A stretch of 52,132 nucleotides of DNA from Clostridia bacterium (GTDB lineage Bacteria > Bacillota > Clostridia > Christensenellales > Aristaeellaceae), in NCBI GenBank assembly GCA_017532155.1, contig JAFXJP010000050.1, positions 1 through 52,132 of the forward strand, written 5' to 3'. Below, piece by piece: positions 1-22,101 of this stretch (position 1 is the stretch's first letter; every line of letters starts with the position of its first letter). The position numbers were made by a program, and so were the translations under genes. The notes under the pieces were generated by a model, which worked only from the letters and a program-made list of their open reading frames with translations, searched no databases and was not told the origin of the DNA.

Positions 1-510
1 AATCACTTCGATCTTGGTAATACGATTGCCCTGATCGTCCACACAATTTTCATTGGTACAGGTGTGGAGCATTTCGCCCGTCGCCAGACAGGTCGCAGGC
101 GTCTTGACAATGCCCTCGTCCCAGACGTGGTTGGCCGGATCGATCTTAATCACTTCGATCTTGGTAATAGGATTGCCCTGATCGTCCACACAGTTTTCAT
201 TGGTACAGGTGTGGAGCATTTCGCCCGTCGCCAGACAGGTCGCAGGCGTCTTGACAACGCCCTCGTCCCAGACGTGGTTGGCCGCATCGATCTCAATCAC
301 TTCGATCTTGGTAATAGAATTACCCTCAGCATCCACGCAGCTCTCATTGATACAGGTGAAGAGCATCTCGCCCGTCGTCAGACAGGTCGCAGGCGTCTTG
401 ACAACGCCTTCGTTCCAAACGTGGTTGGCCGCATCGATCTCGATCGCTTCGGTCTTGGTCGTGCGCTTGCCCTCAGCATCCACGCAGGTTTCAACCGTAC
501 AGGTATAGAG
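1..510 (-). repeat. 147-bp near-identical tandem repeat
   Basis: Units begin at 1, 148 and 295, and a more diverged fourth begins at 442. The period is exactly 147 bp (49 codons). The first three copies differ by only a few bases, which indicates recent duplication. The array continues past the left edge. Confidence 0.9.
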
Positions 511-3500
511 CATTTCGCCCTCAGCCATACAGGTAGCCGCCTTGGCTTCAATGCCGGCGTCCCACTTGTGACCCAGCGCGTCAATCACTTCCTGCGCAAC
601 CAGCGTTTCTCCGCAAGTCGTGCAGTGGCTGCCTTCCGTCAGGCCGGTATTCACGCAGTCAGGAGCAACCGCCGCATCCGTTACCGGCGTATGGCCCTTC
701 TCCTCGACCAGCACGTCGCCGCAAACCGTACAGGTCTGCGCAGTGGTACAGGTAGCTTCGGCGCCCGGCGTATGGCCCAGCGCATCAACAACCTCCTGCG
801 CCTTCAGGATCGCATCGCAAACAGAGCAGTGCACGCCCTCCGTCAGGCCGGTGCTCACGCAGTCGGGCGCAACCGCCACATCCGTTACCGGCGTATGTCC
901 CTTCTCCTCGGCCAGCACTTCGCCGCAAACCGTACAGGTCTGCGCAGTGGTACAGGTGGCTTCGGCGCCCGGCGTATGGCCCAGCGCATCTACTACATTC
1001 TGCGCCACAATCGTTTCACCACAGACAGAGCAGTGCTTACCTTCGGTCAAACCAGTTTCGGTACAGGTAGGCACAACCGCCGCATCAATCACCTCAGTAT
1101 GACCCAGCGCAGTAACAACATCATCCGTATAAACGTCGCCGCAGGCAGAGCAGGTATAGGTCGTATAGCCGTCCGCCGTACAGGTAGGCGCAGTTACCTT
1201 GCCCTCATACTTATGGCCCAGCGCCGCTTGGAGCGTTTCATTACACACCGTACAGATCTGCGCAGTTGTGCAGGTGGCTTCGGCGCCCGGGGTATGGCCC
1301 AGCGCAGACGTTTCTTCCTGCGCAACCAGCACTTCTCCGCAAACGCCGCAATGCGAGCCGGCCGTCAAACCAGTCTTTGTACAGGTAGCCGCAACAGCTC
1401 CATCCGCCACAGCCGTATGATCGATCATGGGGATCACTTCCTGCTGCAACCTGATTGCACCGCAGGTATCGCAGTGTTCACCGGCCGTCAAACCGGTAGT
1501 CGTACAGGTAGGCGCAACATATGCATCCTCTACCCACTCATGGCCCAGCGCGTTGATGATATTCTCCGTCTTTGTCGCGCCGCAGGCAGAGCAGGTATAG
1601 GTCGTATAGCCGCCCGTCGTGCAGGTAGGCGCAGTTACAACGCCTTCACCATAAGCGTGTCCCAGCGCATCCACATACGAATCAACATATGTATCATCAC
1701 ACTTGGAGCAGACATGCGTAGTGTAGCCCTGCTCCGTACAGGTGGGCGCAGTCACAGTGCTTACATGGTTATGACCGGTCGCAGCTACACGCTCATCCTC
1801 GTACGTATCATTACAGGTGGAGCAGACATGCGTAGTATAGCCGTCCGTCGTACAGGTGGGCGCAGTTACAGTGCTTACATAGTTATGGCCGGACGCATCT
1901 ACATACGCATCCACGTACGTATCACCACACGTGGCGCAGACATGCGTAGTATAGCCCTTCTCCGTACAGGTGGGCGCAGTCACAGTGCTTTCATAGCTAT
2001 GGCCGAATGCATCTACATACGTATCCACATACGTATCATTACACTTGGGGCAGGTATGCGTGGTATAGCCCTTCTCCGTACAGGTGGGCGCGGTCACAGT
2101 GCTCTGGTACTCATGCTCCAGCGCAGGAATGACCTCGGAGGGCTTGTTGTTCAGCCAGATTTTGCAGACCGTACACTGCGTACCGCCGGTACAGCCTTCC
2201 TTGCCGCACTGGGCAGGAATCGCCTGAATAACAGTCCAGCTATGCTCCAGCGCAGTGATTTCCTGCGTTTCGAAGCTATCGCAGTTCTCGCAGTCGCGGC
2301 GCTTTTCGCCCGCTACTTCACAGGCAGCTTCCTTCGTGGTATACCACGCACCAAAGACGTGGGCCACGGGCGCAATTTCCTTCGTATCGGTCTGCTGACA
2401 GACAGCGCACTCCAGCTTGGCGACGCCGCCATCCGTACATACCGTTGCCTTATAGGTAACAACGCCATTTTCGTCCTTGACTTCCACAACGCCGACAGAT
2501 TCTTCCGTCAGCTCCCAGGTATGATTACCAGTCGCGGGAAGGGTCCGAACAAGTTCCTCATAGTCGCATACAGAGCACTTCTTGTATACTCTGCCATTCA
2601 CGCCGCAGTTGGCATCCTCAGTGATTTCTTCACCCAGCTTATGGCCGGTCGCCGCAATCACACGGGTATCATCCGCGCCGCAAACAGAGCACTTGAGCAC
2701 CGCCGTACCATTTTCAGTACAGCTGGTGGCCACGTACTGACCGTCTTCTTCCTTCACGCCGACAGAATCCGCCGTCAGCACCCAGGTATGTTCGCCGGTA
2801 GCAGGCAGGGTCCGAACAAGTTCCTCATAGTCGCATGCAGAGCACTTCTTGTATACTCTGCCGTTCACGCCGCAGTTGGCATCCTCAGTGATTTCTTCAC
2901 CCAGCTTATGGCCGGTCGCCGCAATCGTCTCGGTCTTTTCGATGCCGCAGGTGCCGCAGACAAACTTTTTAGATCCTTCCTTGGTACAGGTAGGCTCGGT
3001 GATGATGTTTCCTTCGCCCCAGGCATGCTCAGTAGCCGCGTTGGCAATGACCGTCTTGATGGAATGGTCTTTGGTTCCTTCATCACAGCGCTGACAGGTG
3101 TACACAACGTAGCTGTCCTCGGTGCAGTCAATCGGCTTCCAGCCGTCTTTTTCGCTGTAGGTCGCATTGGTGGGAGCAACTACATAATCATGGCCCAATG
3201 CAGGCAGTTCCGCATTCTCGGGAACAAATCCGCACACGCCACAAATGCTCGCATGGCCAGGCTCCGTACAGGTAGCAGCCTGATAACCATCTTCATCCCA
3301 CTGATGGCCGGGCGCCTGAATCACTTCAGTCTTGGTATGGGTCGCAGAATTCTCAGCGGTGCAGCCGGCATTCTGACAGGTATAAACAACCTGGCCGTCT
3401 TCCGTACAGGAAGTAGCCACCCACACGCCGTTCTCATCCTTTTCAGCGCCGGTAGCAACGCCCGCATCGTAGGTATGCTCCAGCATGTCAATGGATTCGG

Positions 3501-6500
3501 TGAGAATTTCGTCGCAGTATGCGCAATCCCACGTCTTTACGCCCTTAGCGTAGCAGGTGGGCTCGGTGGTAATCTGCCACTTTTCTTCCGTAATTCTGTC
3601 CCATTCATGGCCCAGCACAGGCAGAACGGTGCTGGAAGTTTCAGTACAGTGAATGCCATCGTGCCACTGGCACTTGTATTCCACCAGACCAGTCGCCACG
3701 CAGGTAGCATCCTGTCTGGAGGTTTCAATGCTCATGTTGTGCTCAACCTTAGCGGTCACATTCGCAACCGTCCAGGTATTGCAATCCGGGCAGTACATGC
3801 TGCCTTCGCCATAGCCCGTGGCATAGCAGGTCGCTTCCACAGTCTTGGCTACAGCATTGCGATGGGCAATTGCCTCAACCACATCCTGCTTGACGATGAC
3901 CGTGCCGCAGGTCTCGCAGTGGCTGCCTTCGGTCAAGCCGGTCTCAGTACAGGTAGGCGCCTTCGCCGCATCGGTAACGATATTGGCATGCGCATCAAGC
4001 GCCGCAACCATTGTATACCGCGTCTCAGTACAACCGTTATTCTGGCACTTATAGATCAGCGTACCGGACTGCGTGCAATCAGTCAGCGCATACTCGCCGT
4101 TTTCCATCAGCTTTACGCCGCTGGTCTCAGCGATCTGCATGTTATGATCAGGACGATCCGTCAGCACGGTCTCCCTGCTCTCTCCACAGGTCTCGTACCA
4201 CTTACACCGTTCAACCAACAGACCATCCGCACAGCAGGTAGCAGGCGTGCGGGAGTATTCAACAAAGTCATGCTTAACCGCATCGCTCAAATAGCCAGCT
4301 GTCCACACCTTACAGTCTTCACACTGCGTAGCGCCTTTCGCATAGCCAATCTGATAGCAGGTCGCCGTCTGGCCCTGTTCATATGTGATGATATGGACGT
4401 GGTTATTAGGATCAATCGGCAGCACCTTATCCGCCGGCACTTCTCCGCTGCCGCAGATAGAGCAGTACTCATATTCCGCCCAGCCTGCCTCAATACAGGT
4501 AGGCGTCTTACCAGGCACAGTCACCATGGAATGCGCAATGGGCACTACTTCCTGCTTCACCAGCACCTCGCCGCAGGCGGAGCAGTGCTTGCCCTCGGTC
4601 AGGCCGGTTTCGGTACAGGTGGGCGCCTTCGCCTCATCGATCACCTCGGTGTGGCCCAGTGCAGCTACTACGTTCTGCGCAACCAGCACCTCGCCGCAGA
4701 CGGAGCAGTGCTTGCCTTCCGTCAGACCGGTTTCGGTACAGGTGGGATCCTGCGCCGCATCGACCACTTCGTTGTGGCCCGTCGCAGGAATTTCCTTGTA
4801 AGTCGTATAATCGCACTTCGTGCAGTATTCGTACGCTTCATAACCGGCTTCCGTACAGGTAGCATCCTTGGCCTCTACCTGCACCAAAGTGTCCTTATGA
4901 TTCGTCGCCGGAATTACTACCTTAGTAGTGTAATCACAATCCTTACAGTACTCATACTCATTGTGACCATCTTCCGTACAGGTAGCCGCCTTGGCATCCA
5001 CCTTCAACAGATCATGCCCTTTCGCATTCTTGATCAGTTCGCCGCAAACCGTACAGGTCTGCGCGGTCGTACAAGTTGCCTCAGCGCCGGGCGTATGGCC
5101 AAGCGCAGCTACTACAGTCTGCGCCACAGTAACCGCGCCGCAAGCAGTACAGTGCTTACCTTCGGTCAAGCCTGTCGCGGTGCAGGTAGGCGCAACCGCC
5201 TCATCGATCACTTCGGTATGGCCCTTCGCAGCTACTACTTCCTGCTTCACCAGCACCTCGCCGCAGACAGAGCAGTGTTTGCCCTCGGTCAGGCCGGTTT
5301 CAGTACAGGTGGGCGCCTCCGCAGCATCGATCACTTCGGTATGGCCGAGTGCATCAATTTCAGTCTGCGCGACCGTAATTTCATCACAAACAGTACACTT
5401 TTTGCCCTCGGTCTTGCCCTTTTCAGTGCAGGTCGGAGCAACAGCAGCAATCGTTTCTTCCTTATGGCCCAGCGCAGGCGTTTCTTCCTGCGCCTTCAGC
5501 ACTTCATTACATACCGAGCAATGCTTACCCTCGGTCTTACCTTCCGTGGTGCAGGTAGCGTCTACCGCCGCATCGATCACTTCGGTATGGCCCAGCGCGT
5601 TTACTACAGTCTGCGCCACAATCGTTTCACCGCAGACAGAGCAGTGCTTGCCTTCGGTCAAGCCAGTTTCGGTGCAGGTAGGCGCCTTCGCCTCATCAAT
5701 TACTTCGGTATGACCCTTTGCGGCCACTACTTCCTGTGCCACCAGCACTTCATTACATACCGAGCAATGCTTGCCCTCGGTCTTACCTTCCGTGGTACAG
5801 GTAGCGTCTACCGCCGCGTCTACCACTTCGGTATGGCCCAGCGCAGCAATTTCTTCCTGCGCGACCGTAATTTCACCACAAACAGTACACTTTTTGCCCT
5901 CGGTCTTGCCCTTTTCAGTGCAGGTCGGAGCAACAGCAGCAATCGTTTCTTCCTTATGACCCAGCGCAGGCGTTTCTTCCTGCGCAACCAAAACAGTGTT
6001 ACAGGTAGAGCAATGCTTGCCTTCCGTCTTACCGGTCGCGGTACAGGTAGGCGCAACCGCAGCATCGGTCACTTCGGTATGGCCCAGCGCAGCTACTACA
6101 GTCTGCGCCACAGTAACCGCGCCGCAAGCAGTACAGTGCTTACCTTCGGTCAAGCCAGTTTCGGTGCAGGTAGGCGCAACCGCAGCATCGGTCACTTCGG
6201 TATGCCCCAGCGCAGCTACCTCATTCGCCGTATACGTATCGCCGCAAGCGGAGCAAGTATAGGTCGTATAGCCCTTCTCGGTACAGGTAGGCGCAGTTAC
6301 CACGCCATCATTGTAGCTATGGCCTTTTGCATCAGCCAGTTTCTCTCCACAAACCGTACAGGTCTGCGGAGCAGTACATGTCGCCTCAGCGCCAGGCGTA
6401 TGGCCCGTCGCAGGAGCCAGTTCCTTTCCACAAACTGTACAGGTCTGCGCGGTCGTACAAGTTGCCTCAGCGCCGGGCGTATGCGGCAGCAGCTCGCCTT

Positions 6501-7150
6501 CCGTGTAGCCACAACGCTCACACGTTGCAAGCACAGTACAGGTTGCCGCAGCCATATCATGGCCCAGCGCATCTACTACCTTCTGCGCCTCAATCGTTTC
6601 TCCACAGACAGAGCAGTGCTTACCTTCGGTCAAACCGGTCGCGGTACAGGTAGGCGCAACCGCAGCATCGGTCACTTCAGTGTGGCCAGTCGCAGCCTTA
6701 ATAACCTCGCCACAAACCGTACAGGTCTGCGCGGTCGTACAAGTCGCCGCATCGCCGGGCGTATGGCCGAGCGCAGCAATTTCTTCCTGCGCGACCAAAA
6801 TGGTGTTACAGGTAGAGCAATGCTTGCCCTCCGTCTTACCGGCAGCGGTACAGGTCGGAGCGACCGCTGCATCGGTTACTTCGGTGTGGCCCAGAGCAGG
6901 AATAACCTCCTGTGCCGTCAGCACCTCGCCACAAACAGTACACTTCTTGCCGTCCGTCAAGCCGGTTTCGGTACAGGTAGCCGCCTTGCCGGCAATCGTT
7001 TCTTCAGTATGGCCAAGCGCCGCAGTTTCATTATTGGTATAGGAACCACCACAAACTGTACAAGTATAAGTGGTATAGCCCTCAGCCGTACAAGTAGGTG
7101 CAGTTACCACACCTGCATCATACGAATGCTCCTGTGCAGACACCGGCTCG
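1..7150 (-). repeat. Long array of cysteine-containing protein repeats
   Basis: DNA and protein repeats within the giant gene. Most units are about 41 residues and centre on C-x10-C-x2-CG, with the linker GHTEV..AAVAPTC between units. At 1690-2110 the unit is nearer 39 residues and rich in Tyr/Thr/Val. At 1-510 it is 49 residues. From length and period there should be somewhere between 50 and 60 copies; I did not count them exactly. Each copy carries a CxxC pair that could bind zinc or form disulfides (inference). Confidence 0.85.
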
Positions 7151-10100
7151 CCACAAACGACACACGTTCCTGCATCCGCACAAGTGGTACCCTCCGGACG
7201 AACATGCTCAGAGCATACCCACTTGCCAGCAGTGTAAGTATAGGTAATAGCGGTTTCGCTGGTATGCTTACCAGTCTCCACATAAGTACCATCCGCATTC
7301 TTCAGCTTGGCAGAGGTCAGCAGGATTTCGGTATAGTCCGTGCCCTGCACCAGCTGATGAGTGACAGTCTGCGTGCCAGGTGTACCGACTGTTACTTTAC
7401 CTCCCTCTACACCGGTAATATTCGCACCACCAGCAGTTGTATATGCAGAACCTGCAGATACATCAACTGTACCGTTAACCTCAATAGCCGCATCCTCACT
7501 CATATCATGACTACCAGTTTTGCTGGGTGCATAAGCAACCATCTGATGCGTTCTATTGGCACTGTCAGAATAAACAAAGTTACCCCACTCGTCAGCGTCA
7601 TAGACATAGATATTGCAACCGCTGGCCAGGGTACACTGCGCACCTTCTTCAATGATAATTTTCGAACCAGGCAGCATGGCGATATCTTGCCCAAGTGTAA
7701 TCGTTTTACCGCTCTTGACCGTAACTGTAATATTGCTGTTAATCGGCAGTTCATAATTCTTGGAATTAATTGAACTCGTACCGATCTTCATATTAATACC
7801 AGAGACAGACAAATCACCATTGGCCTCAACCATCAGTCGGTCACTGCTGCCATCATAGCGCTTTGTTACATAACCACTCGACAAGTTGAACATGGCAGAA
7901 GATCCACCAATAAAGCCCACAGACGTGCCAAAAGCCGAACTGCTCATATAGATCGTCGTATATGAATATTCTGTTGCCCCCGAATAAATCGTCATCGGCA
8001 CTTCGATATTCTGCACATAATACTGAGACATCGGAAATACGCCGTTATCCATATCCGTACTCTGCGTACCGCCACGGAAGTCCGCAATCTGAAACATTTC
8101 ATATACGGCCGACCCGCTATTAGCAGTTACCGTACCATCACCAGTAATAAAGCCATATACATACAGTTTGCCGCCATCATTTACAGTAATGTTGCTGCCA
8201 TTGTTCATTCGTACAAAGCTGACATCACCAGTAGGCGCACCACCATCTTTCTTACCACCAGCAGCATACTTATGCTTCGCAGAAAGGCTCATTTCGCCAT
8301 TAATTGTCAGTTTTGCACCTTCAGCTAACGTCAATGTGCGATAAACAGTCGGTGTAGTATACGTGTCAGTAGAACAAGGTGTGGTTGTATACAGCGTATT
8401 CGCAGCATCAAACGGAATCAGCAATGTAACGCCACTGGGAATCGTGTAGTTGCCAGCAACCAGCGTACCGCTGTTCATCAGCACAATATACTTACTGGCA
8501 CTGCTGGTTGTCTTGGTAATTGCACCTGTCAGATTGTCAAACAGATACGACAAAGCGCTTACATTATAGTAAGTTGCAGTTGTACCAAGCCATCCATCCT
8601 TATACGACTGTGCAGCTCCTACACCACCAACCGCAAACCAAGGCGTGCCACCGTCTTTGGCAAACGCCGCCTGAACGGTCATGTCAGCCGCAGGAGTCAG
8701 CGTATAGGAAGTGTCGGTAGACAAAATAGAACCGTCCGCCGCATCGACCCAGCCAAGGAAGTTAGCGCCGCTGGCAGGAGTAGCAACCAAAGCCGCACCA
8801 GTCAAGGCAATTTCCTGCGTAGCACCCGCTTCAACTGCTGTGCCGCCAACAGTAACACTACCCAATGTAGAATCATAATTGAACGTTACATCCGATGCAG
8901 TGGCTGCTTCAACCAAGCTGATATTGCTAATTGTCAACGTAACCGTCAAGTTGCTAAAACCGCTATTAGAAGTAATAGCAAATACCGTCGACTCACCAGA
9001 ATTCAGCAATTTTGAATGCGTTCCCGTTGTAGCCGAACTTGCACCATCAATTGTGAAACTACTTGCATTGCTAACAGAATAGTCAAAAGAAAGAGTGACC
9101 GTCTTTTCAGTTTCATTCGTAATGGTAATAGTATTCGTCTTTTTACTGAGCATACCACCCTTCGCAGTAGCCGTCAGCGTACCACTGCTATTCTTAATAG
9201 TATTCTGAGTATCAGTAGCGCTCACCTGACCATCCAGCACAGTAACCGTCGTCGCAGGCACAGCAGAGTTATAGGATTCCATCATGGATTCCCACACGAA
9301 TACGAACTTGCTGAAGCTGCCATGCGCCAGCATGGTATCGAGGTCGGCATCTACGATATCGCCAGCTTCGCCCTTGGCGATGATATAGTTCTGCAGCGCA
9401 TCATAATCCGCCTGGATGATCGCAATGGCATCTTCGCTCTCATAGAACTTGCCCATGATGGCGTTGCCGTATTCATTTTCGGTCCAGCCGGTGGTATCGC
9501 CAAAGTGCTTGAGGAGGAAGGCGTCGATCTCGGCCTTGCAATCGTCGATGGCCGCCTGATGCACGATCTCCTGCAGCGCATCGATGGAGGCATAGCCCAC
9601 GACATGATAGGGCAGATCGGTCATTTCTTCGGGCTTGAGGCCCTTATTTTCGGGGGCGTCTTCCTTATAAAGGACGCGCAGGCGCTTATCCACCATGGAG
9701 GATACATTGCCCTCGATGGTGTAGGCATAGCCTTTGCCGCCGTCATAAACAATACCGATATGGGTGGCTACATCGGGATCATCAAAGGAGATGAAGATGA
9801 TATCGCCCTTCTGGGGGATATAGCTGCGGTCGCGATAAGCGCCCATGGCCTTGACATTTTCAATCCACATCCAGACAGAGCCATCGAAGCCGAGGTCATC
9901 GCGATCGATGCCGGCATAGCGCGCGCAGAACGCGATGAAGGGCGTGCACCACTCGTGATAATCCATGCCCTCGGCATGCGCATAGCGGCTGTAATACTGA
10001 TAGCCGCCGTTATAATAACGGAAATCCACCTTGCTGCTTTCATAGCCCAGCTGGGTGATGGCGATGGAAACGAGATCGTCAGACCAATCACCGGTCAGAT

Positions 10101-10992
10101 CGGCAGCATAAAGAACGGACTTGTCCCAATCGGACTGCTTTTCGCGCTCGTCCTTGGCCACGGCCACATGATGAGAGCCGAGATTGACAGACGCGCCGGC
10201 AGCATCCTCCACAGATACGGACACATAGGTAGCAAAGCCCCAATAGGGCGGGAGAATATCAAAGGTCTGCGTGCCTTCGCCCATGGTAAAGTCCTTGGTA
10301 GTGGACTTTTCGCCCGTGGTAATCTGCACGTGAACGGTATAAGGCGCAGTGCCGCCAGACGCAGTGACAGCAAAATAGATATTCTGCGCATCTTCGCCGC
10401 CAACACGGGCATAGGCGCTCATGCCGGACAAAGAAGCCTGCAGCGCGGGCGCGACAACAGGAGCCTCAGTCGGTTCAACAGGGGCTTCGGTGGGAACGAT
10501 GGGCGCTTCCGTGGGATCGGCGGGAGCTTCCGTAGGATCGGCAGGCGCTTCCGTAGGATCAGCGGGAGCTTCCGTAGGATCGGCAGGAGCTTCGGTGGGA
10601 ACGATGGGCGCTTCCGTGGGATCGGCGGGAGCTTCCGTAGGATCGACTACAGGAGCTTCCGTCGGATCAACGGGCACTTCCGTAGGATCAACGGGCGCTT
10701 CCGTAGGATCAACGGGCGCTTCCGTAGGATCGGCAGGCGCTTCCGTAGGATCGGCAGGAGCTTCCGTAGGATCGGCAGGAGCCTCCGTAGGATCGGCAGG
10801 AGCTTCCGTAGGATCGGTTACCGTCTCCGTTGCTGTAGGTTCTTCTACCACAATCACGCCTTCATCGGTATGCTCGTGGTCGTGGTCATGCTCTTCCGTG
10901 CCTTCCGCAAACACCGTTACGGGCGTCATAGGAAGCAGCATGGTACATACCAGCAGCATCGAGATAGCGCGTTTCCACATCGTACTCATCAT
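1..10992 (-). CDS. Giant secreted CHAP-domain protein with cysteine repeats (partial)
   Basis: One uninterrupted minus-strand frame of 3,664 codons that is still open at the left edge, so the C-terminus is missing. The start ATG at 10992 follows AGAAGGA by 5 nt; a second ATG follows directly. In order: signal peptide (about residues 1-30), a Pro/Thr/Glu/Ala linker of PTEAPAD-type heptads (about 55-180), a CHAP-type amidase/peptidase domain (about 300-450) with Cys349 in an EWC motif, His411 in THIGIV and Glu427/Asn429 in IEGN, an InlB-B-like module (about 705-785), a region of 'open' secreted-protein sequence, then from about residue 1280 onward roughly 39-49-residue repeats of the form PTCT-x-x-G-x-x-x-G-x-x-C-x-x-CG-E ending in GHT. 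CHAP domains cut peptidoglycan, so a cell-wall role is likely. The role of the repeats is unknown. It sits 57 nt downstream of the Wzy gene, as the apparent last gene of the exopolysaccharide operon. Confidence 0.93.
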   Translation of the reverse strand, partial: MMSTMWKRAISMLLVCTMLLPMTPVTVFAEGTEEHDHDHEHTDEGVIVVEEPTATETVTDPTEAPADPTEAPADPTEAPADPTEAPADPTEAPVDPTEAPVDPTEVPVDPTEAPVVDPTEAPADPTEAPIVPTEAPADPTEAPADPTEAPADPTEAPADPTEAPIVPTEAPVEPTEAPVVAPALQASLSGMSAYARVGGEDAQNIYFAVTASGGTAPYTVHVQITTGEKSTTKDFTMGEGTQTFDILPPYWGFATYVSVSVEDAAGASVNLGSHHVAVAKDEREKQSDWDKSVLYAADLTGDWSDDLVSIAITQLGYESSKVDFRYYNGGYQYYSRYAHAEGMDYHEWCTPFIAFCARYAGIDRDDLGFDGSVWMWIENVKAMGAYRDRSYIPQKGDIIFISFDDPDVATHIGIVYDGGKGYAYTIEGNVSSMVDKRLRVLYKEDAPENKGLKPEEMTDLPYHVVGYASIDALQEIVHQAAIDDCKAEIDAFLLKHFGDTTGWTENEYGNAIMGKFYESEDAIAIIQADYDALQNYIIAKGEAGDIVDADLDTMLAHGSFSKFVFVWESMMESYNSAVPATTVTVLDGQVSATDTQNTIKNSSGTLTATAKGGMLSKKTNTITITNETEKTVTLSFDYSVSNASSFTIDGASSATTGTHSKLLNSGESTVFAITSNSGFSNLTVTLTISNISLVEAATASDVTFNYDSTLGSVTVGGTAVEAGATQEIALTGAALVATPASGANFLGWVDAADGSILSTDTSYTLTPAADMTVQAAFAKDGGTPWFAVGGVGAAQSYKDGWLGTTATYYNVSALSYLFDNLTGAITKTTSSASKYIVLMNSGTLVAGNYTIPSGVTLLIPFDAANTLYTTTPCSTDTYTTPTVYRTLTLAEGAKLTINGEMSLSAKHKYAAGGKKDGGAPTGDVSFVRMNNGSNITVNDGGKLYVYGFITGDGTVTANSGSAVYEMFQIADFRGGTQSTDMDNGVFPMSQYYVQNIEVPMTIYSGATEYSYTTIYMSSSAFGTSVGFIGGSSAMFNLSSGYVTKRYDGSSDRLMVEANGDLSVSGINMKIGTSSINSKNYELPINSNITVTVKSGKTITLGQDIAMLPGSKIIIEEGAQCTLASGCNIYVYDADEWGNFVYSDSANRTHQMVAYAPSKTGSHDMSEDAAIEVNGTVDVSAGSAYTTAGGANITGVEGGKVTVGTPGTQTVTHQLVQGTDYTEILLTSAKLKNADGTYVETGKHTSETAITYTYTAGKWVCSEHVRPEGTTCADAGTCVVCGEPVSAQEHSYDAGVVTAPTCTAEGYTTYTCTVCGGSYTNNETAALGHTEETIAGKAATCTETGLTDGKKCTVCGEVLTAQEVIPALGHTEVTDAAVAPTCTAAGKTEGKHCSTCNTILVAQEEIAALGHTPGDAATCTTAQTCTVCGEVIKAATGHTEVTDAAVAPTCTATGLTEGKHCSVCGETIEAQKVVDALGHDMAAATCTVLATCERCGYTEGELLPHTPGAEATCTTAQTCTVCGKELAPATGHTPGAEATCTAPQTCTVCGEKLADAKGHSYNDGVVTAPTCTEKGYTTYTCSACGDTYTANEVAALGHTEVTDAAVAPTCTETGLTEGKHCTACGAVTVAQTVVAALGHTEVTDAAVAPTCTATGKTEGKHCSTCNTVLVAQEETPALGHKEETIAAVAPTCTEKGKTEGKKCTVCGEITVAQEEIAALGHTEVVDAAVDATCTTEGKTEGKHCSVCNEVLVAQEVVAAKGHTEVIDEAKAPTCTETGLTEGKHCSVCGETIVAQTVVNALGHTEVIDAAVDATCTTEGKTEGKHCSVCNEVLKAQEETPALGHKEETIAAVAPTCTEKGKTEGKKCTVCDEITVAQTEIDALGHTEVIDAAEAPTCTETGLTEGKHCSVCGEVLVKQEVVAAKGHTEVIDEAVAPTCTATGLTEGKHCTACGAVTVAQTVVAALGHTPGAEATCTTAQTCTVCGELIKNAKGHDLLKVDAKAATCTEDGHNEYEYCKDCDYTTKVVIPATNHKDTLVQVEAKDATCTEAGYEAYEYCTKCDYTTYKEIPATGHNEVVDAAQDPTCTETGLTEGKHCSVCGEVLVAQNVVAALGHTEVIDEAKAPTCTETGLTEGKHCSACGEVLVKQEVVPIAHSMVTVPGKTPTCIEAGWAEYEYCSICGSGEVPADKVLPIDPNNHVHIITYEQGQTATCYQIGYAKGATQCEDCKVWTAGYLSDAVKHDFVEYSRTPATCCADGLLVERCKWYETCGESRETVLTDRPDHNMQIAETSGVKLMENGEYALTDCTQSGTLIYKCQNNGCTETRYTMVAALDAHANIVTDAAKAPTCTETGLTEGSHCETCGTVIVKQDVVEAIAHRNAVAKTVEATCYATGYGEGSMYCPDCNTWTVANVTAKVEHNMSIETSRQDATCVATGLVEYKCQWHDGIHCTETSSTVLPVLGHEWDRITEEKWQITTEPTCYAKGVKTWDCAYCDEILTESIDMLEHTYDAGVATGAEKDENGVWVATSCTEDGQVVYTCQNAGCTAENSATHTKTEVIQAPGHQWDEDGYQAATCTEPGHASICGVCGFVPENAELPALGHDYVVAPTNATYSEKDGWKPIDCTEDSYVVYTCQRCDEGTKDHSIKTVIANAATEHAWGEGNIITEPTCTKEGSKKFVCGTCGIEKTETIAATGHKLGEEITEDANCGVNGRVYKKCSACDYEELVRTLPATGEHTWVLTADSVGVKEEDGQYVATSCTENGTAVLKCSVCGADDTRVIAATGHKLGEEITEDANCGVNGRVYKKCSVCDYEELVRTLPATGNHTWELTEESVGVVEVKDENGVVTYKATVCTDGGVAKLECAVCQQTDTKEIAPVAHVFGAWYTTKEAACEVAGEKRRDCENCDSFETQEITALEHSWTVIQAIPAQCGKEGCTGGTQCTVCKIWLNNKPSEVIPALEHEYQSTVTAPTCTEKGYTTHTCPKCNDTYVDTYVDAFGHSYESTVTAPTCTEKGYTTHVCATCGDTYVDAYVDASGHNYVSTVTAPTCTTDGYTTHVCSTCNDTYEDERVAATGHNHVSTVTAPTCTEQGYTTHVCSKCDDTYVDSYVDALGHAYGEGVVTAPTCTTGGYTTYTCSACGATKTENIINALGHEWVEDAYVAPTCTTTGLTAGEHCDTCGAIRLQQEVIPMIDHTAVADGAVAATCTKTGLTAGSHCGVCGEVLVAQEETSALGHTPGAEATCTTAQICTVCNETLQAALGHKYEGKVTAPTCTADGYTTYTCSACGDVYTDDVVTALGHTEVIDAAVVPTCTETGLTEGKHCSVCGETIVAQNVVDALGHTPGAEATCTTAQTCTVCGEVLAEEKGHTPVTDVAVAPDCVSTGLTEGVHCSVCDAILKAQEVVDALGHTPGAEATCTTAQTCTVCGDVLVEEKGHTPVTDAAVAPDCVNTGLTEGSHCTTCGETLVAQEVIDALGHKWDAGIEAKAATCMAEGEMLYTCTVETCVDAEGKRTTKTEAIEIDAANHVWNEGVVKTPATCLTTGEMLFTCINESCVDAEGNSITKIEVIEIDAANHVWDEGVVKTPATCLATGEMLHTCTNENCVDDQGNPITKIEVIKIDPANHVWDEGIVKTPATCLATGEMLHTCTNENCVDDQGNRITKIEVI
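10446..10824 (-). repeat. 21-bp tandem repeat encoding the PTEAPAD linker
   Basis: A run of 21-bp units, each encoding a seven-residue PTEAPAD-like heptad (variants end in VD or IV). It forms the extended, probably wall-spanning linker between the signal peptide and the CHAP domain of the giant protein. The unit count is likely to vary by slippage (inference). Confidence 0.85.
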
Positions 10993-11049
10993 GTTTGTCC
11001 TTCTTTCCGAATATTATATATAAAATTGATTGAACAATTTTTCAACTTT

Positions 11050-12327
11050 CTACCCGTTTAGAGATCGTTGTCGCTGCTTTTTATTGATAAACGGAAGCGC
11101 TAATACAAAATACATAATATAGGCTTCTTCTGCACGCATTGATACATTGTATATAATCATCAATAAACAAACAGGCGCTAAAATACGTACAAGCTGACAT
11201 ATATCCCGCTGTGCTTCTCCGTTTTTTTCACGCTTTCTGGTATAGACATAAACTCCTGCAAAAAACAGCATATACAAACCCAAACCAATGATGCCTGTCT
11301 CCAAAAACATAAAGGATAAAGAAAACCAATTATAGTGAAGGTGTCCGTACTGTTCAAAGAAAGCTGTATTCAAAAAACTAAATGCCGATGTATCACAATT
11401 TCCCAAGCCCAATCCCAGCAGCCGTTCCGGCCAGTTTTTTAAGAAGCGATCCCAAACAATCGGTATTGCTGTCAAGCGATTCATATCACCACGGCCTGTG
11501 TAGCCTGAAGATGAAGTTGCAACCTCTACTATGTTGCTGATATTCAGAAATCCCCTGAAGCGCGGGAAGATTGCCACCAGCAGCATTGCCCCTACATATA
11601 CGCCGACACTTGCAGCAATAACAATCCACAGCTTTTTTATTGATGTTCGCGTTATCAGCAACGCCATAGCAACAATCAACACAAACAAGATAAAGAAAAA
11701 TCTCAATTCTGCCAATGCAGCAATCATCAATGCCATTCCACACTTCATCAGGCACGTTTTCGTTGTTTCTTTTCCATTGATATAATTCAAAATGCTTCTT
11801 GCTAAAACGATACTGAAAAAAATGATCGTCTTGCTATTACAACCAACACTTGTTCCGAAAATCCCTCCCAAATAGTCCATTTTTTTGCCCAGTACAAAAA
11901 ACTGAAAAATCGAAACTGCAAAATTTACATAAAACAGCTTATCAAATATTTCCATTATTTCCGCCACATTCTGCTCTCGCAGGAACATACAGCATGCAAA
12001 GAAATAAATAAAGTAACGAAAATTATTTCGAAAACCCCATAAATAGTACAAAGGACTTTTACTATTTATAATAAATCCAAATAGTGTGAAAACCCAAAAT
12101 ACCATAACCAGCGTCAGTAGACTTGCCGTTTCTCTGTTTGGCATACGGAAATGGTTTATCACTATAGTAACAAGCAACCCCAACCACACAACATCTGCTG
12201 TATATTTAAACAATTCCGGGAAATTCAGCAAATCCAAAAGCAAACCGAAACTAAACACAATGGCAAGCATCAGCAAAACCATTGTTTCGTTTTGTCCTCT
12301 CTTTTTGATTCGCAAAGTGAACTGCAT
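11050..12327 (-). CDS. Wzy-like O-antigen/exopolysaccharide polymerase
   Basis: A 425-residue polytopic membrane protein with about ten to twelve hydrophobic segments and a large loop between residues about 250 and 330. The shape, length and the loop motif GLGLGNCDT resemble the Wzy/O-antigen ligase superfamily, which joins lipid-linked repeat units outside the membrane. Sequence in this family is poorly conserved, so the assignment rests on topology and operon position. The ATG follows AAAGGA by 8 nt, and that ribosome-binding site overlaps the stop codon of the upstream GT2 gene. The gene is clearly more AT-rich than the upstream operon genes, as polymerase genes of polysaccharide loci often are. 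Confidence 0.8.
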   Translation of the reverse strand: MQFTLRIKKRGQNETMVLLMLAIVFSFGLLLDLLNFPELFKYTADVVWLGLLVTIVINHFRMPNRETASLLTLVMVFWVFTLFGFIINSKSPLYYLWGFRNNFRYFIYFFACCMFLREQNVAEIMEIFDKLFYVNFAVSIFQFFVLGKKMDYLGGIFGTSVGCNSKTIIFFSIVLARSILNYINGKETTKTCLMKCGMALMIAALAELRFFFILFVLIVAMALLITRTSIKKLWIVIAASVGVYVGAMLLVAIFPRFRGFLNISNIVEVATSSSGYTGRGDMNRLTAIPIVWDRFLKNWPERLLGLGLGNCDTSAFSFLNTAFFEQYGHLHYNWFSLSFMFLETGIIGLGLYMLFFAGVYVYTRKREKNGEAQRDICQLVRILAPVCLLMIIYNVSMRAEEAYIMYFVLALPFINKKQRQRSLNG

Positions 12328-12331
12328 GTGT

Positions 12332-13375
12332 TTATCCTTTCAAATTTCTTAACCAGGCCAGCGCATAACATATGCATACGCTTTTTTTGCGCATTGCCCA
12401 GAATAAAACTTTTTTAGTGTACGCTTCACCAGAATAATCATACTCAGGCAATGCTTCCTGAAGCAGGGAATCCTGTACAACCTCCCGCATGAGCCTTTGC
12501 TTTTCCACAAATTTTTCCTTACAAGCTACAATTTGCTTAAGCACGCCCATCACTAACCCCAAATACATCGTCGTAATTTCTGGTGTTATCTCACAATCGT
12601 ATTTTTTGCTCTGCTCCATCATAGCAATTGCAAATTTTCGTGTTCTTTGATATCGATCCTTACAATAAGAGCGCGACAATGATTTGGGGTTCACGACGTA
12701 AAAGTAAAGCGCCTTTCGAATAAACGCAGCCTTTTCAACAAACTGGTACAACTCAAACATGGAATAGAAATCTTCGGAGATAATTTCCCTTTCCGATACA
12801 AATTTCCAGCCTACACGCTTGATAAGCTGCATAGAAATCAGAGAAAAGCACGCGCTCAACAATAAATTCCAGTTTTCGCCCGTTGCTGCATTATGACTAA
12901 CCAACCGGGGAATCAAATTTTCCTTGATCTCCGTGCCGCTGAAAACCTCCTTAGGCGGCAAGGGGATCCTTTCCCCGATGACTTTACCGTCATTTGTAAC
13001 ATCCGTATTCCCAAAGCTGACAATATCTGCCTTAGTATCTTCAATCACCCGCCAGCATTCTTCAATCGTTGTTGGCGCAACATAGTCATCGCTGTCAAAA
13101 AAGCAGATATACTCACCCGTGGCGTTCTCTATGCCAGTATTTCTCGCATATCCCAAACCACCGTTTTCTTTATGCACCACCTTGATCCGCTTGTCTTTTT
13201 GCGCCCAAGCATCGCACATAGAGGGGCAGGCGTCGGGAGAACCATCATCAACCAGGATAATCTCCAGCTTCCTGTAGGTCTGGTTCACAACGCTCTGCAC
13301 GCATCTGTCCAGATATGCTTCAACGTTGTATACCGGAATTACGACCGAGACAATTCCTTCGTTCACGTTGTTCAC
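12332..13375 (-). CDS. Family 2 glycosyltransferase
   Basis: A 347-residue GT2 (GT-A fold) enzyme that transfers a sugar from a nucleotide donor to the growing lipid-linked repeat unit. The N-terminal half carries SVVIPVYN (residues 10-17), DDGS (43-46) and the metal-binding DSDDY (94-98). The C-terminal half is variable and probably sets the acceptor. It starts with GTG at 13375, 10 nt after AGGAGG. It belongs to the AT-rich glycosyltransferase/polymerase block of the operon. The sugar cannot be predicted. Confidence 0.88.
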   Translation of the reverse strand: MNNVNEGIVSVVIPVYNVEAYLDRCVQSVVNQTYRKLEIILVDDGSPDACPSMCDAWAQKDKRIKVVHKENGGLGYARNTGIENATGEYICFFDSDDYVAPTTIEECWRVIEDTKADIVSFGNTDVTNDGKVIGERIPLPPKEVFSGTEIKENLIPRLVSHNAATGENWNLLLSACFSLISMQLIKRVGWKFVSEREIISEDFYSMFELYQFVEKAAFIRKALYFYVVNPKSLSRSYCKDRYQRTRKFAIAMMEQSKKYDCEITPEITTMYLGLVMGVLKQIVACKEKFVEKQRLMREVVQDSLLQEALPEYDYSGEAYTKKVLFWAMRKKSVCICYALAWLRNLKG

Positions 13376-13404: not shown

Positions 13405-14490
13405 TTATATGGGGCAGTTTCTTATGTAGAATTCTTCTAACTTTTCCTTGGCGTACGCTATATCATATCGCGTGTTTGTTGTTGAAATTATTTTTCTTTC
13501 CTTCCCTTTTGCCGCAATTATCTGTTCAGCCCATTCTTCCTTCGTTCGCTCAAGACCAATGAATGTACATTGATCAGTAAAAACTACCTCGTCAGATACT
13601 TTATCTGAGAAAAAGCACGGTAATCCTGCATACTGGGCTTCTATACCAACAACAGGAACGCCTTCAAACAACGATGGTAAAACAAATGCATCCATTGCTT
13701 GATAAAGATTCTGCACATCGTTTCTGCTTCCTAGAAAATGCACTTGTTTGCTCAGGCCTAGCTCTTCAACCCTGTTCCTTGCTTCCTTTTCTTTCTCCCC
13801 TTTTCCTATAAGCAGCAAAATACTATCAGGCTCATGCTTTCTAATCTCAGAAAAAATATCGATCAAAAATACTTGATTCTTCGCATAAGAAAATCTTCCG
13901 ATATGCCCTATAACAAACTTTTCATCCAGCTGCATTTCTTTTCTTATTCTATTTCGTATATCAGCCGAATAAACAAAGCTTGAAGCCTCAATTGCATTGG
14001 GAACCACCTCAAAAGTTCTTCCTCGAAACAAGAATTCTCCAGCTTCTTGACCACAAGCCAAACGATAATTAGCAACACTCGGTATACAATATCTGAAACA
14101 CTGTTTCAGTATATATTTTATATCTTTATCAATAGCTGTGTTGTGACTGTGCGCAATCCTTACCGGTATTTTTGCTCTTTTCGCGGCAAACAAAGGAATA
14201 TAACTCATCGCATCAATATGAGAATGTACAATCCTATATTCGGGATGTTCTGCAAAAAAGCGCTTCATATATGCGAAATACGCAGGATAGTTTTGCGGAT
14301 AAAGGCGCGGTGCATAATAAACCCGGCCACCCATTGCGATGATTTCATCGTCATAGTCTGACTTTTCGGGTCTATGTGTCAGAAAATCAAACTGGATTTT
14401 CGTCCTGTCCATGTTACGATAATAATTCATCAGCATAGTTTCCAAACCAGCCCGATGCATATTATTAACGCACTGCAGCACCCGTATCAT
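13405..14490 (-). CDS. Family 4 glycosyltransferase (EpsF-like)
   Basis: A 361-residue GT-B glycosyltransferase. It has the N-terminal QCVNNMHRAGLETML motif typical of EpsF/capsular GT4 enzymes and the C-terminal E-x7-E nucleotide-sugar motif in LFEGVPVVGIEAQ. The ATG at 14490 is 7 nt after GGAGG and directly follows the upstream gene's TGA, so translation is probably coupled. It acts on the cytoplasmic face of the membrane in repeat-unit assembly. The gene is AT-rich compared with its upstream neighbour. Confidence 0.87.
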   Translation of the reverse strand: MIRVLQCVNNMHRAGLETMLMNYYRNMDRTKIQFDFLTHRPEKSDYDDEIIAMGGRVYYAPRLYPQNYPAYFAYMKRFFAEHPEYRIVHSHIDAMSYIPLFAAKRAKIPVRIAHSHNTAIDKDIKYILKQCFRYCIPSVANYRLACGQEAGEFLFRGRTFEVVPNAIEASSFVYSADIRNRIRKEMQLDEKFVIGHIGRFSYAKNQVFLIDIFSEIRKHEPDSILLLIGKGEKEKEARNRVEELGLSKQVHFLGSRNDVQNLYQAMDAFVLPSLFEGVPVVGIEAQYAGLPCFFSDKVSDEVVFTDQCTFIGLERTKEEWAEQIIAAKGKERKIISTTNTRYDIAYAKEKLEEFYIRNCPI

Positions 14491-15609
14491 TCATGATCCT
14501 CCGTAAGCTTTCAATGTTAATTTCGTTGATTCATCCCAGCCATACTGGCTGCAGATAAACGTCGCCGCGGTTTCTTTGTAACCCTGTACCGTTAAAAAAT
14601 CATCGCACAATGTTTGCAGGCAATTTCTGAGCGATTGTACATTACCTTTCAGGAAAGTGAGCCCATGATCGCGCACCACATCGGCATTTTCCGCAATGTC
14701 AGATACTACGCAGCAATTGCCGTAGCTCATTGCCTCCAGCAGGCTCAGCGGCATGCCCTCCAGGTCGGATGGCAAAACATACAGATAAGCGTTGCTGTAC
14801 AGCTCCTCCAGCGTCTGACCCTGTACAAAGCCGGTAAAGAGGATTTTTTCATTGCCCGCCGCCATCTTTTTCAGCGATTCAAAATAATCATCCGAGTCGC
14901 TTGCACCGCCGGCAATCACCAGTTTTTTATCCGTTTGGAGGCCCTGATAGGCCTCGATCAGATAATGAATGCCCTTTTCCGGCGTGATACGGCCCAGATA
15001 CAGAATGTAATCATCTTTATTCAGGCCATAATCCTGTCGGATTTTGTCTGCCGGTTTATTTTCTACCGGCGTCACACCATTGGGAATCAGGCGTGTTTCG
15101 CGGTTGTAGTGCGCCTTGAAGTATTCCTGCACGCCCCGGCTGAGCACGATGATCTCATCAGCATACTTTGCTGCGCACTTTTCACCCAGCAGGATGTATG
15201 TGCGCGCCAGGCGGCCCCATTTACTGCGCTGATGATCCAGCCCATGTACCGTGACAACGCACTTTTTGCCAAACAGCTTGGTCAAAAAGAGTGTTGCACA
15301 GGGCCCCTCCGTGTGGAAATGCACCACATCATAGCGGCCAAAGGCCGCGCATACGGAGGCAAAGGCCGAAGCCGTCATCGCAGCAATGCCCTTGATGTTG
15401 ATCGCCGGCACCGTTTTCAGCCTTACGCCTTGAAATTCCTTCCGCTTTTCGCCGTCAAACTCCCTGCCGCTGACATGATGTCCGCCGCGGTTATAACAGG
15501 TCACCTGATGGCCTTTTGCAGCCATGCGAACTGCCAGCTCCGCCACAACAATCTCCACGCCGCCCTCGCGGGAAGGCACGCGCTTGTGACCCAGCATCGC
15601 AATCCGCAT
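14491..15609 (-). CDS. Family 4 glycosyltransferase
   Basis: A 372-residue GT-B enzyme beginning MRIAMLGHKRVPSREGGVE, a start typical of capsule rhamnosyl-/glucosyl-transferase relatives. The C-terminal half has GRITPEKGI and the E-x7-E motif in DLEGMPLSLLEAMSYG. The RBS AAAGGAG lies 6-7 nt before the ATG. It is the first glycosyltransferase after the priming enzyme in operon order, so it plausibly adds the second sugar (inference from gene order only). Confidence 0.88.
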   Translation of the reverse strand: MRIAMLGHKRVPSREGGVEIVVAELAVRMAAKGHQVTCYNRGGHHVSGREFDGEKRKEFQGVRLKTVPAINIKGIAAMTASAFASVCAAFGRYDVVHFHTEGPCATLFLTKLFGKKCVVTVHGLDHQRSKWGRLARTYILLGEKCAAKYADEIIVLSRGVQEYFKAHYNRETRLIPNGVTPVENKPADKIRQDYGLNKDDYILYLGRITPEKGIHYLIEAYQGLQTDKKLVIAGGASDSDDYFESLKKMAAGNEKILFTGFVQGQTLEELYSNAYLYVLPSDLEGMPLSLLEAMSYGNCCVVSDIAENADVVRDHGLTFLKGNVQSLRNCLQTLCDDFLTVQGYKETAATFICSQYGWDESTKLTLKAYGGS

Positions 15610-15628: not shown

Positions 15629-16339
15629 TTATTCGCCTTCCATATTCAGTACAGCCTTAAATGTGCTGAGAATAATTTTCCAGTCTGTCAGGAAACTGCG
15701 TTCCTCTATATATTTCAAGTCCAGCGCCACCCACTGTGCAAAGCTCAGGCTGTTGCGCATATGCTGAATTTGCCAATAGCAGGTCAAACCCGGCGTAATG
15801 CTCAGGCGCTGGCGCGCATAATCGTCGTATTGTTCGGTTTCACGAGGCAGCGGCGGCCGGGGGCCTACGATGCTCATGTCGCCTCTGAGAATATTGATCA
15901 GCTGCGGCAGCTCATCAATACTGGTTTTGCGGATAAAGCGGCCCACGCGCGTGATGCGCGGATCATTCTTGATCTTAAATACCGGGCCATCCATTTCGTT
16001 GAGGCTCATCAACTGCTCCAGCAGCTGATCAGCGTTGGGAACCATGGTGCGGAATTTGTAAAACTTGAATTTTTTACCATTTATTCCCACCCGTGTCTGC
16101 ACATAGATGGGGCTGGCGCCAGGGCTGTCGATGACGATAGCAATCGCCACTATCAGCAGCAGCGGGAACAGAACGATCAGGGCCACAATGGATAACACAA
16201 TATCCTGCAATCGCTTGAAAGGTAAATACCAATTCCTGCGCTGCAGTGCATCCTTGTGCTTTGTCATCGGTTCTTTTTGCATTTTCATTTCCGCTGTGCA
16301 TCGAGCGCAGGAATATTTTCTCTCCGTCGCCGCGTTCAT
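15629..16339 (-). CDS. Priming sugar transferase (polyprenyl-phosphate sugar-phosphotransferase)
   Basis: A WcaJ/CpsE-type catalytic domain that moves a sugar-1-phosphate from UDP-sugar to undecaprenyl phosphate, the first step of repeat-unit assembly. It has one hydrophobic anchor ([20 protein letters not shown]), then [24 protein letters not shown] and PGLTCYWQI. It is the short form without the large N-terminal multi-helix domain. I chose the ATG at 16339 because AAAGGA lies 9 nt upstream. An in-frame ATG at 16375 overlaps the LCP stop as ATGA but has no clear RBS, and would add 12 residues. A CxxC pair lies near the N-terminus. Confidence 0.88.
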
Positions 16340-16371
16340 GCCCAACTTTCCTTTCGCTTCAAATCGCGTAA

Positions 16372-17400
16372 TCATTCATAAATCGGCAGATAGAACAAAT
16401 TCAATACCATATCTGCCAGCGCAGCATCATCCACATGGTATTCCATGAAGACCCTGCCCAGCACGTTTTCGCCAGGCAGCTCATAGCTCATCAGCTTGCC
16501 GTTATCCGTCAGCATATCGCCAAACTGAATAAATTCTTCCACTGTATAATCGGTAAAATGGTAATCGCCCAGGCTTACCACCAGCTCAGCCACTGCTTTG
16601 GGATCCTGCAAATACGGCTGAGCCTGCTGCATCCAGGCCGTGGCATATTGCCGCTGGCGCTCCATGCGGTGGAGGTTACTGCTATCCTCCAGGCCGCGGC
16701 GTGTACGCACATATGTCAGCGCCCGATCCCCCTGAAGCTTGACCATCGATCCAAGCTTGAGGGTATCGTCGATTCCCGTGAAATCATCCTTCACTTCCAC
16801 CTCAACGCCGCCCGCCCAATCATTCATGATGGGCACAGCGTCCATGGTGACGGCAATGTAATGATCGATCTCCACGCCAAAGAGCAGATGGGAGACCGCA
16901 TCGACCACGTTCTGGCAGCTATCCTCCTGGCCGCGGCCATAGTTGAAAGCAAGCGCCAGCTGGCCATAGGTCGTGCCGGCCTTCTGACCGGTAAGACCCA
17001 GCACGGGAATATTGGTCATGGCGTCGCGGTTCAGGTGCAGTACGGATTTTTCGCCCGTATCCTGATCGCGGATAAACAGCGCCAGAAAGTCTGCCTGGCT
17101 GCTGTTATTGTAGGACTGGCTGCCCGTCATGGCGCCGAAGTCGTCAACGCCAATCACCAGCAGCGTGTCCAGATCCCTGCCGACATGCCATCTGCCGTTC
17201 ATGAACACCTGCGCGCCCTCGCGGGCCTTCGTATAGGCGGTCATGCGGCGTCCGGCATTTTCAATCGGCGCAGAGTGCCAGGCTTCGAAGCTGCGGGACA
17301 AAAGCGCGCCCAGAACCAGCACCGCAAAAACGCCGCAAAGCGCCAGACAAATCCGAAGCGGATTTGCCCTGCGGGATCTTCTGACCGTTCTTTTGCTCAT
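16372..17400 (-). CDS. LytR-CpsA-Psr (LCP) family protein
   Basis: A 342-residue type II membrane protein with a basic N-terminus, a transmembrane helix at about residues 16-37 and an extracellular LCP domain. LCP enzymes move lipid-linked polymers onto peptidoglycan. Visible signatures are LVIGVDD (81-87), the acidic SQADF (101-105), LNRDAM (123-128), YVRTRRG (230-236) and the downstream R-x2-RQ stretch near 245-250, the residues that bind pyrophosphate and magnesium in the family. Its presence implies that the polymer of this operon is attached to the cell wall rather than shed. Confidence 0.9.
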   Translation of the reverse strand: MSKRTVRRSRRANPLRICLALCGVFAVLVLGALLSRSFEAWHSAPIENAGRRMTAYTKAREGAQVFMNGRWHVGRDLDTLLVIGVDDFGAMTGSQSYNNSSQADFLALFIRDQDTGEKSVLHLNRDAMTNIPVLGLTGQKAGTTYGQLALAFNYGRGQEDSCQNVVDAVSHLLFGVEIDHYIAVTMDAVPIMNDWAGGVEVEVKDDFTGIDDTLKLGSMVKLQGDRALTYVRTRRGLEDSSNLHRMERQRQYATAWMQQAQPYLQDPKAVAELVVSLGDYHFTDYTVEEFIQFGDMLTDNGKLMSYELPGENVLGRVFMEYHVDDAALADMVLNLFYLPIYE

Positions 17401-22014: not shown

Positions 22015-22101
22015 TGGTGCGGGAAACAGGACTTGAACCTGCAAGCACGTACGTGCACATGAACCTGAATCATGCGCGTCTGCCAATTCCGCCATTCCCG
22101 C
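22015..22101 (-). tRNA. tRNA-Leu (anticodon CAG)
   Basis: 87 nt including an encoded CCA. The acceptor arm begins GCGGGAA and ends TTCCCGC. The anticodon stem CAUGA/UCAUG closes the seven-base loop UUCAGGU, reading CAG. The long variable arm (class II tRNA) and a T-arm with GGTTCAAGTCC are present. Confidence 0.95.

Follow-up and report, generated by a model that had tools for sequence, protein, structure and literature searches.

A giant CHAP and cysteine-repeat surface protein at the end of an exopolysaccharide gene cluster in a Clostridia bacterium: a possible coat-spanning stalk

The stretch of DNA analysed here (52,132 nucleotides, hereafter the window) is the entire contig C32 of a 2.02-Mb, 82.5% complete genome of a Clostridia bacterium (G000:C32 in our labels), and a gene for a giant surface protein runs off its left edge; as the window is the whole contig, the flank to the left is absent from the assembly. 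The giant gene is the last of 12 same-strand genes, extending from position 21503 down to it, in which neighbours overlap or lie at most 57 nt apart (Table 1), and a previous reading of this DNA made from the letters alone (the sequence-only reading) was right to see a very large secreted surface protein at the end of a capsule or exopolysaccharide (EPS) cluster. The hallmarks of a Wzx/Wzy-type cluster are there, namely Wzz/CpsC, CpsD, CpsB, a priming transferase, LCP and glycosyltransferases. We tentatively propose that the giant is a secreted, very long stalk of its EPS locus which may span the coat and display an exchangeable wall-active head, a reading that we regard as possible rather than probable.

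The place of the giant recurs in other genomes. Six peptides from the CHAP-to-beta part of the protein, when used to scan 84,980 species genomes, gave seven relatives, all metagenome-assembled genomes, titled Oscillospiraceae, Ruminococcus, Clostridia (three), Bacillota and Bacteroidaceae. Profile and protein searches by rank (own genome not counted, at most 400 genomes sampled per rank) identified a long, strong match to the beta-rich region in one of 59 relatives (G011, 5e-117; another genus of the same family), with weaker matches at 1e-3 in 12 of the 59, mostly to the CHAP part; at the order level there were matches at 1e-20 in 45 of 395 genomes, the two best being G394 and G232, and at the class level matches at 1e-60 in 2 of 390 (G610 and G667). 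Absences in these searches carry little weight because of the sampling limit and because many assemblies are fragmented. Neighbouring genes were annotated at 13 beta-region loci, window included, and same-strand polysaccharide genes precede the giant in six of the ten relatives with an upstream gene in view (L025, L026, L027, L030, G011 and G232; L031, G610 and G667:C39 show none). The protein thus accompanies capsule genes in some other genomes, and the condition named as refuting the sequence-only reading, that it never does so, does not hold. An orthologous Wzy-like gene (38–49% identity) is found upstream in four of the ten, directly so in L025 and L026, two genes away in G011, and beyond a transposase-like remnant (below cut-off) in L030; this count leans toward a pairing, because it was by the giant that three of the four were found. 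In the genomes to which L025–L030 belong, six in all, the Wzy family occurs in L025, L026 and L030 only, as one copy each, beside the giant.

That gene had also been called a polysaccharide polymerase lying within 57 nt of the giant. The strand and the gap stand; no polymerase family was matched (NCBIfam gave none up to 0.001, and Pfam none above cut-off), and it is from its eight hydrophobic segments, found in a simple scan, and its place in the operon that we infer a Wzy polymerase. It is likely that the giant is co-transcribed with the cluster: no terminator-like site was found between the Wzy-like gene and the giant, and the nearest same-strand promoter-like site, a 10-of-12 match (11357-11329), lies inside the Wzy-like gene. 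Promoter-like sites over the whole region (20, against 16.1 expected by chance, standard deviation 3.9) hardly exceed chance, and the gaps before the giant in L025 and L026 hold none.

The giant is encoded by one open frame (1-10992, minus strand), which bears out the at least 3,664 residues claimed for it, and its parts follow in the order signal peptide, proline heptads, Ig-like region, CHAP domain, a further stretch, a conserved region of 695 residues and Cys repeats. The heptads had been placed as a linker between the CHAP domain and the repeats; they in fact precede CHAP (residues about 57–180), and it is the conserved region that intervenes. The call of a CHAP domain held up on the isolated piece, where PF05257 scored 37.5 bits against a cut-off of 26, while PF05257 was not reported when the whole protein was scanned. 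CHAP domains are related to NlpC/P60 peptidases. C349, H411, E427 and N429 are what we take to be the catalytic CHAP positions (in the Cys, His and acidic/Asn roles); the last three align with LysK and an endolysin in weak PDB matches (E 0.068 and 0.13), and C349 was placed by sequence and the Pfam range. Based on the profile and these catalytic-type residues, we predict the domain to be a peptidoglycan hydrolase. Matches to the CHAP module at 28–41% are found in further proteins of the genus and of the wider group, and alignments of same-genus CHAP proteins also cover the Ig-like region. For the conserved, beta-rich region the InlB-type repeat was the sole recurring Pfam match (four of eight members), and no PDB sequence relative was found at 0.1; BLAST found no segment common to the window protein and that of L025 ahead of it.

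The cysteine repeats, estimated previously at about 2,400 residues of CxxC units, indeed take up about 2,410 residues and hold 52 CxxC pairs. Within residues 1251–3664 the pattern H x4-34 C x3-14 C x2-4 C was matched 57 times, 51 times with a CxxC end, and these modules account for 171 of the 183 Cys of the region; shuffled controls (n = 200) gave 3.87 modules on average and never more than 9. The majority of units measure 27, 39, 41 or 49 residues and have one His and three Cys, and a few pieces of the repeat split have other His/Cys numbers. GH and the three Cys did not vary across an alignment of 13 double units, of which 5 come from the window and 8 from four relatives; some of the units overlap, and those of the relatives were chosen by GH spacing. 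No Pfam or NCBIfam family scored above cut-off for the repeat, and its profile gave nothing convincing against PDB; the best match, to Kazal-type inhibitors (E 0.049), was judged to be chance. Since three is an odd number, disulphides within a unit are ill-suited, and three Cys with one His per unit would fit a bound metal better. Cys-repeat giants occur in gut Clostridia, and the window protein is like these in its GH...C...CxxC units, seen also in the relatives, and unlike them in that its repeats are fused to CHAP and stand at a capsule locus.

The same genome encodes other Cys-repeat proteins (G000:C31:1-2060 (-), C36:1-476 (+), C27:6000-10308 and C56:37255-37830). The open reading frame (ORF) at the edge of C36 (157 residues of repeats, ending in a stop) was considered as the tail of the giant and dropped, as it fits C31 better: its best matches to the C31 edge ORF were 82–85% over 211–309 bases, versus 70–74% over 80–110 bases, plus a few shorter, higher-identity ones, to C32. 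C31 and C36 may be the two ends of one gene, and the giant of C27 is a separate gene. A 2,590-residue antisense frame (window 1-7773 (+)), open across the whole repeat region, is taken as a putative by-product of the repeat codons.

In the relatives, other wall-active domains are part of the giant or its neighbours. The giant of L025 is complete at 3,254 residues and consists of the beta region, Cys repeats, a 250-residue domain and NAGPA (E 3.7e-41), followed by a C-terminal part with a weak Ig-like match and then choline-binding-type repeats; both are below Pfam cut-offs, but the L030 counterparts of these repeats, at 51% identity, do pass. In L026 the 250-residue domain and NAGPA are likewise fused to the giant, as far as its contig reaches. 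In L030 the system is divided between two proteins: a giant of 999 residues, which has a dockerin, and another of at least 1,535 residues that bears NAGPA and choline-binding repeats. In both L027 and G232 the gene order is NAGPA protein, small membrane protein, giant. An alignment of the pre-NAGPA domain (A7, five sequences) showed D180, D186 and R239 to be invariant, in agreement with the TelC pattern of Asp, Asp+6 and a C-terminal Arg given in section 12 of PMC12419801. A profile search of PDB chains with this domain did not find TelC; from the architecture and the D/D/R pattern we infer it to be TelC-like.

Large Bacillota proteins with a prok-TelC and NAGPA core and cell-wall-binding hairpins were read as conflict systems in 2025, and NAGPA was described as hydrolysing sugar phosphodiesters (PMC12419801, section 31); some such proteins bear an NlpC/P60-type peptidase, according to the same paper, and a fusion of NAGPA to other surface phosphoesterases is mentioned in passing in PMC11188070. 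The TelC-like/NAGPA proteins of the relatives appear to be of this kind: that of L025 similarly has a TelC-like domain, NAGPA and choline-binding-type repeats joined to a beta/Cys giant, and L027, L030 and G232 encode the giant and the NAGPA protein near each other. The window differs in having CHAP and Cys repeats, with no NAGPA match and no TelC-like domain in the 3,664 available residues of its giant, where the one overlap with the pre-NAGPA domain was Cys repeat. When the C-terminal half of the L025 protein was searched against the window's own genome, C32 and C36 were matched through their Cys repeats, and a separate 333-residue frame on C19 gave one NAGPA-like match. Neither the linkage to a Wzy locus nor the beta/Cys giant is described in the consulted sections of PMC12419801.

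The CHAP domain of the window was not matched by BLAST (window CHAP, 1e-5) in the readable part of any of the 11 relatives whose giant has a complete 5' end; seven of these run off contigs, and a very divergent CHAP or one beyond the end would be missed. As CHAP went undetected in these relatives, it is apparently unnecessary for crossing the wall, which counts against the proposal of the sequence-only reading that the protein is a wall-piercing adhesin whose CHAP opens peptidoglycan for its own passage. InlB-type repeats are common in surface adhesins, and an N-terminal CHAP would leave the cell first; with giants of the same design that lack a detectable CHAP in existence, we nonetheless consider this piercing model very improbable. 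Another explanation is that CHAP acts on the producer's own wall as the coat is attached or shed, with the repeats holding the enzyme in the coat. LCP enzymes make sugar-phosphodiester-type bonds, and LCP and a sugar transferase are encoded in the same cluster. This would suit NAGPA as a hydrolase of sugar phosphodiesters (PMC12419801), and EpaU of Enterococcus faecalis, an autolysin, sets a partial precedent, being a peptidoglycan hydrolase encoded inside a wall-polysaccharide cluster which binds that polysaccharide (PMC13343894). EpaU differs in that its wall-binding domain does the binding, whereas the window protein is a giant with Cys repeats; moreover, CHAP is undetected in the 11 relatives and about 2,410 residues of stalk seem superfluous for work on one's own wall, and we think self-remodelling unlikely.

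We return to the stalk. Since some other gut bacteria have a relative of the giant in the same position, with no wall-cutting CHAP detected, the giant may be a stalk that works with the coat. It would be made together with the coat, and its Cys repeats would form a chain of small metal-stabilised modules long enough to cross it. The missing C-terminus would hold the protein in the wall, as the choline-binding-type repeats of L025 would, and the N-terminal CHAP would then be held at the outer tip, where it may cut the peptidoglycan of neighbouring cells or shed wall; with such C-terminal anchoring CHAP would sit at the distal end of a stalk of over 2,400 residues, a position from which neighbours or shed wall are better targets than the producer's own wall. 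The enzymatic part would be exchangeable, with CHAP in the window and TelC-like plus NAGPA domains fused or adjacent in relatives, and the assembly as a whole would be a device that spans the coat to display wall-active domains. A similar tracking of EPS genes by surface proteins is described for PEP-CTERM/EpsH sorting (PMC1569441), though that system was described from outer-membrane bacteria and the C-terminus of the window giant is missing.

Comparison of five loci for the beta region, Wzy, GT2 and GT4a indicated discordant histories. The beta region is 60% identical between the window and L025 and 43% between the window and G011, whereas the Wzy-like protein (38% and 49%, respectively) and GT2 (35% and 50%) show the reverse; GT4a showed little contrast (58% to L025, 60% to G011, 64% to L030). 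The giant, or its beta part, thus appears to have passed from lineage to lineage independently of Wzy and GT2 with its place kept, and, given the CHAP matches elsewhere in the genus, the window protein has the look of a travelling beta/Cys stalk with a local CHAP module added in front. As to a viral or plasmid origin, two peptide patterns run against viral contigs picked out 55 stretches, none of them a relative by tblastn, and the plasmid search gave one weak record (29% over 27% of the query), so that neither source was retained; a 164-residue piece of repeat matched no phage record.

Searches from the Wzy side gave a more sparing picture. The Wzy family was found in one of the 59 relatives (G011, 1e-20, on the same contig as the giant), in one of 395 genomes of the order (G111, 1e-20) and in three of 390 of the class (G496, G628 and G478, 1e-40). 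The contig of G111 ends 0.85 kb after its Wzy-like gene, inside a secreted protein similar to that encoded after Wzy in G011 (25%, E 1e-25). In G496 (Wzy 33%) there are LicD and a 1,930-residue protein with NAGPA and choline-binding parts; neither was found there in G628 and G478 (Wzy 29–30%).

Several of these results weigh against a stalk that belongs to its coat. No polysaccharide genes were recognised upstream of the giant in four of the ten relatives (L028, L029, G394 and G667:C37). Of the five genomes found by Wzy, a beta giant was detected in G011 alone; G111, at 48% Wzy identity, had no beta match at 1e-20, the more distant G496, G628 and G478 had none at 1e-60, and none of the 45 genomes of the order with a beta match at 1e-20 had the Wzy family. 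The giant may possibly have a promoter of its own, to judge by the window gap and by L030, where an 11-of-12 promoter-like site with an extended -10 (TG extension) lies about 85 nt before the giant, with five promoter-like sites found there versus 2.5 expected. CHAP is present in other secreted proteins of the genus, and its fusion to the stalk may therefore be a chance shuffle; the C-terminus is absent from the assembly, so the anchor cannot be read, and metal binding, fold and hydrolase activity are proposed from sequence. An alternative to which many of these points lend themselves is that recombination favours the end of the cluster, a hot spot into which surface proteins are taken up, and that the giant is a passenger with no working tie to the coat. 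The giants of the same family that lack recognised polysaccharide genes upstream, the genomes that have the Wzy family and no detected giant, the discordant histories and the site for an own promoter in L030 all favour it, but it is set against an otherwise rare Wzy family standing directly or at most two genes upstream in four of ten relatives (three of them fetched by the giant), and we consider it somewhat unlikely. The pairing of Wzy and giant is too recurrent in giant-first searches to be the accident of one genome, as far as the sequences go, and is obligatory in neither direction.

A stronger form of the stalk proposal would make the giant a coat-coupled contact weapon: in some EPS loci of gut Clostridia, a fixed place after one Wzy type would be filled by a metal-clad giant stalk that can be exchanged, passes through the coat and confronts neighbouring cells with wall-active heads (CHAP in the window, TelC-like plus NAGPA in others), in some lineages beside a divergent Lgt-family protein bearing Cys at the N/E signature positions. 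This we regard as quite unlikely as a whole. The divergent Lgt-family membrane protein adjoins the giant at L081:4570-5256, L074:11109-11810, L027:8611-9354, L073:10044-10754 and L098:6385-7152, upstream of it in four loci and downstream in L098; PF01790 scored above cut-off in the four copies scanned (L073 was found by BLAST only), and all five copies keep C...GCC.G, with Cys at the N and E signature residues of a solved Lgt.

Table 1. Coordinates in the window of the giant gene, its parts and the genes of the polysaccharide cluster
Feature	Positions	Strand	Evidence or remark
Giant surface-protein gene	1..10992	-	open frame of at least 3,664 residues from ATG; 3' end off contig
Signal peptide, residues 1-29	10906..10992	-	single hydrophobic segment 9-31; cleavage site by eye
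DPTEAPA-type heptad linker (proline heptads), residues about 57-180	10453..10824	-	sequence
Ig-like region, residues about 186-290	10123..10437	-	label by eye
CHAP domain, residues 344-429	9706..9963	-	PF05257 E 3.5e-9; C349, H411, E427, N429 present
Conserved region, beta-rich by eye, residues 559-1253	7234..9318	-	42-68% identity to relatives
InlB-type B-repeat, residues 710-780	8653..8865	-	PF18998 E 1.7e-5, above cut-off
Cys repeats, residues 1254-3664 (about 2,410 residues)	1..7233	-	57 H-C-C-C modules
57-nt gap	10993..11049	-	AT-rich; GGAAAGAAGGA-type ribosome site (by eye) and TATATAAT
Wzy-like integral membrane protein	11050..12327	-	38-49% identity to counterparts in G011, L025, L026, L030
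GT2 glycosyltransferase	12332..13375	-	PF00535
GT4-type glycosyltransferase	13405..14490	-	NCBIfam glycosyltransferase models, all below cut-offs
GT4 glycosyltransferase	14491..15609	-	PF00534/PF13439
Polyprenyl glycosylphosphotransferase (sugar/priming transferase)	15629..16375	-	PF02397
LCP-family glycopolymer transferase	16372..17400	-	PF03816 E 1.7e-19
Secreted protein, no Pfam or NCBIfam match	17446..18453	-	N-terminal hydrophobic segment
Sortase-B-like protein without catalytic His and Cys	18477..19124	-	PF04203 below cut-off; PDB sortase B alignments
CpsB/CapC phosphatase	19121..19828	-	PF19567
CpsD-type ATPase/kinase	19834..20610	-	AAA_31/ParA; position
Wzz/CpsC chain-length protein, first cluster gene	20607..21503	-	PF02706

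Other features of the cluster and its counterparts are as follows. No Wzx flippase was found among the scanned operon genes and ten further ORFs of the window, the remaining genome not having been searched; in L025 a flippase directly follows the giant, and the window itself stops inside its giant. The sortase-B-like protein beside CpsB has a counterpart in G011 (L118:8899-9678 (-)), the two being 59% identical between the two genera. At what we take to be the catalytic positions, His is replaced by Gly in the window and by Ser in G011, and Cys by Ser and Gly, respectively; it is probably an inactive protein with a conserved sortase fold. A tRNA-Leu (CAG) gene (window 22015-22101 (-)) lies immediately upstream of the cluster and separates it from a DeoR-type regulator. 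In G011 there are seemingly two polysaccharide clusters (L118:1-2445, annotated by eye, and L081), each closed by a gene for a secreted protein and one for a giant that has long EPT-type repeats; the second runs off its contig. The EPS clusters of L025, L026 and L030 include a radical SAM/SPASM-type gene (L025:6036-7130, L026:6166-7242 and L030:4597-5673), assigned by Pfam for the L026 copy and by similar sequence ends for the other two.

Beyond the papers cited, nothing in the open-access literature searched on Cys-repeat giants, capsule-locus CHAP, Lgt paralogues, NAGPA and inactive sortases was recognised as describing this locus. The analysis ties one group of unexplained Cys-repeat giants to a defined gene neighbourhood, and to enzymes acting on peptidoglycan and sugar phosphodiesters, and it gives a gene context to a class of proteins that was put forward in 2025 as a conflict system. 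With this, the function of these giants becomes a testable question: whether the stalk crosses the coat, whether its repeats bind zinc, and what the target of its head may be.

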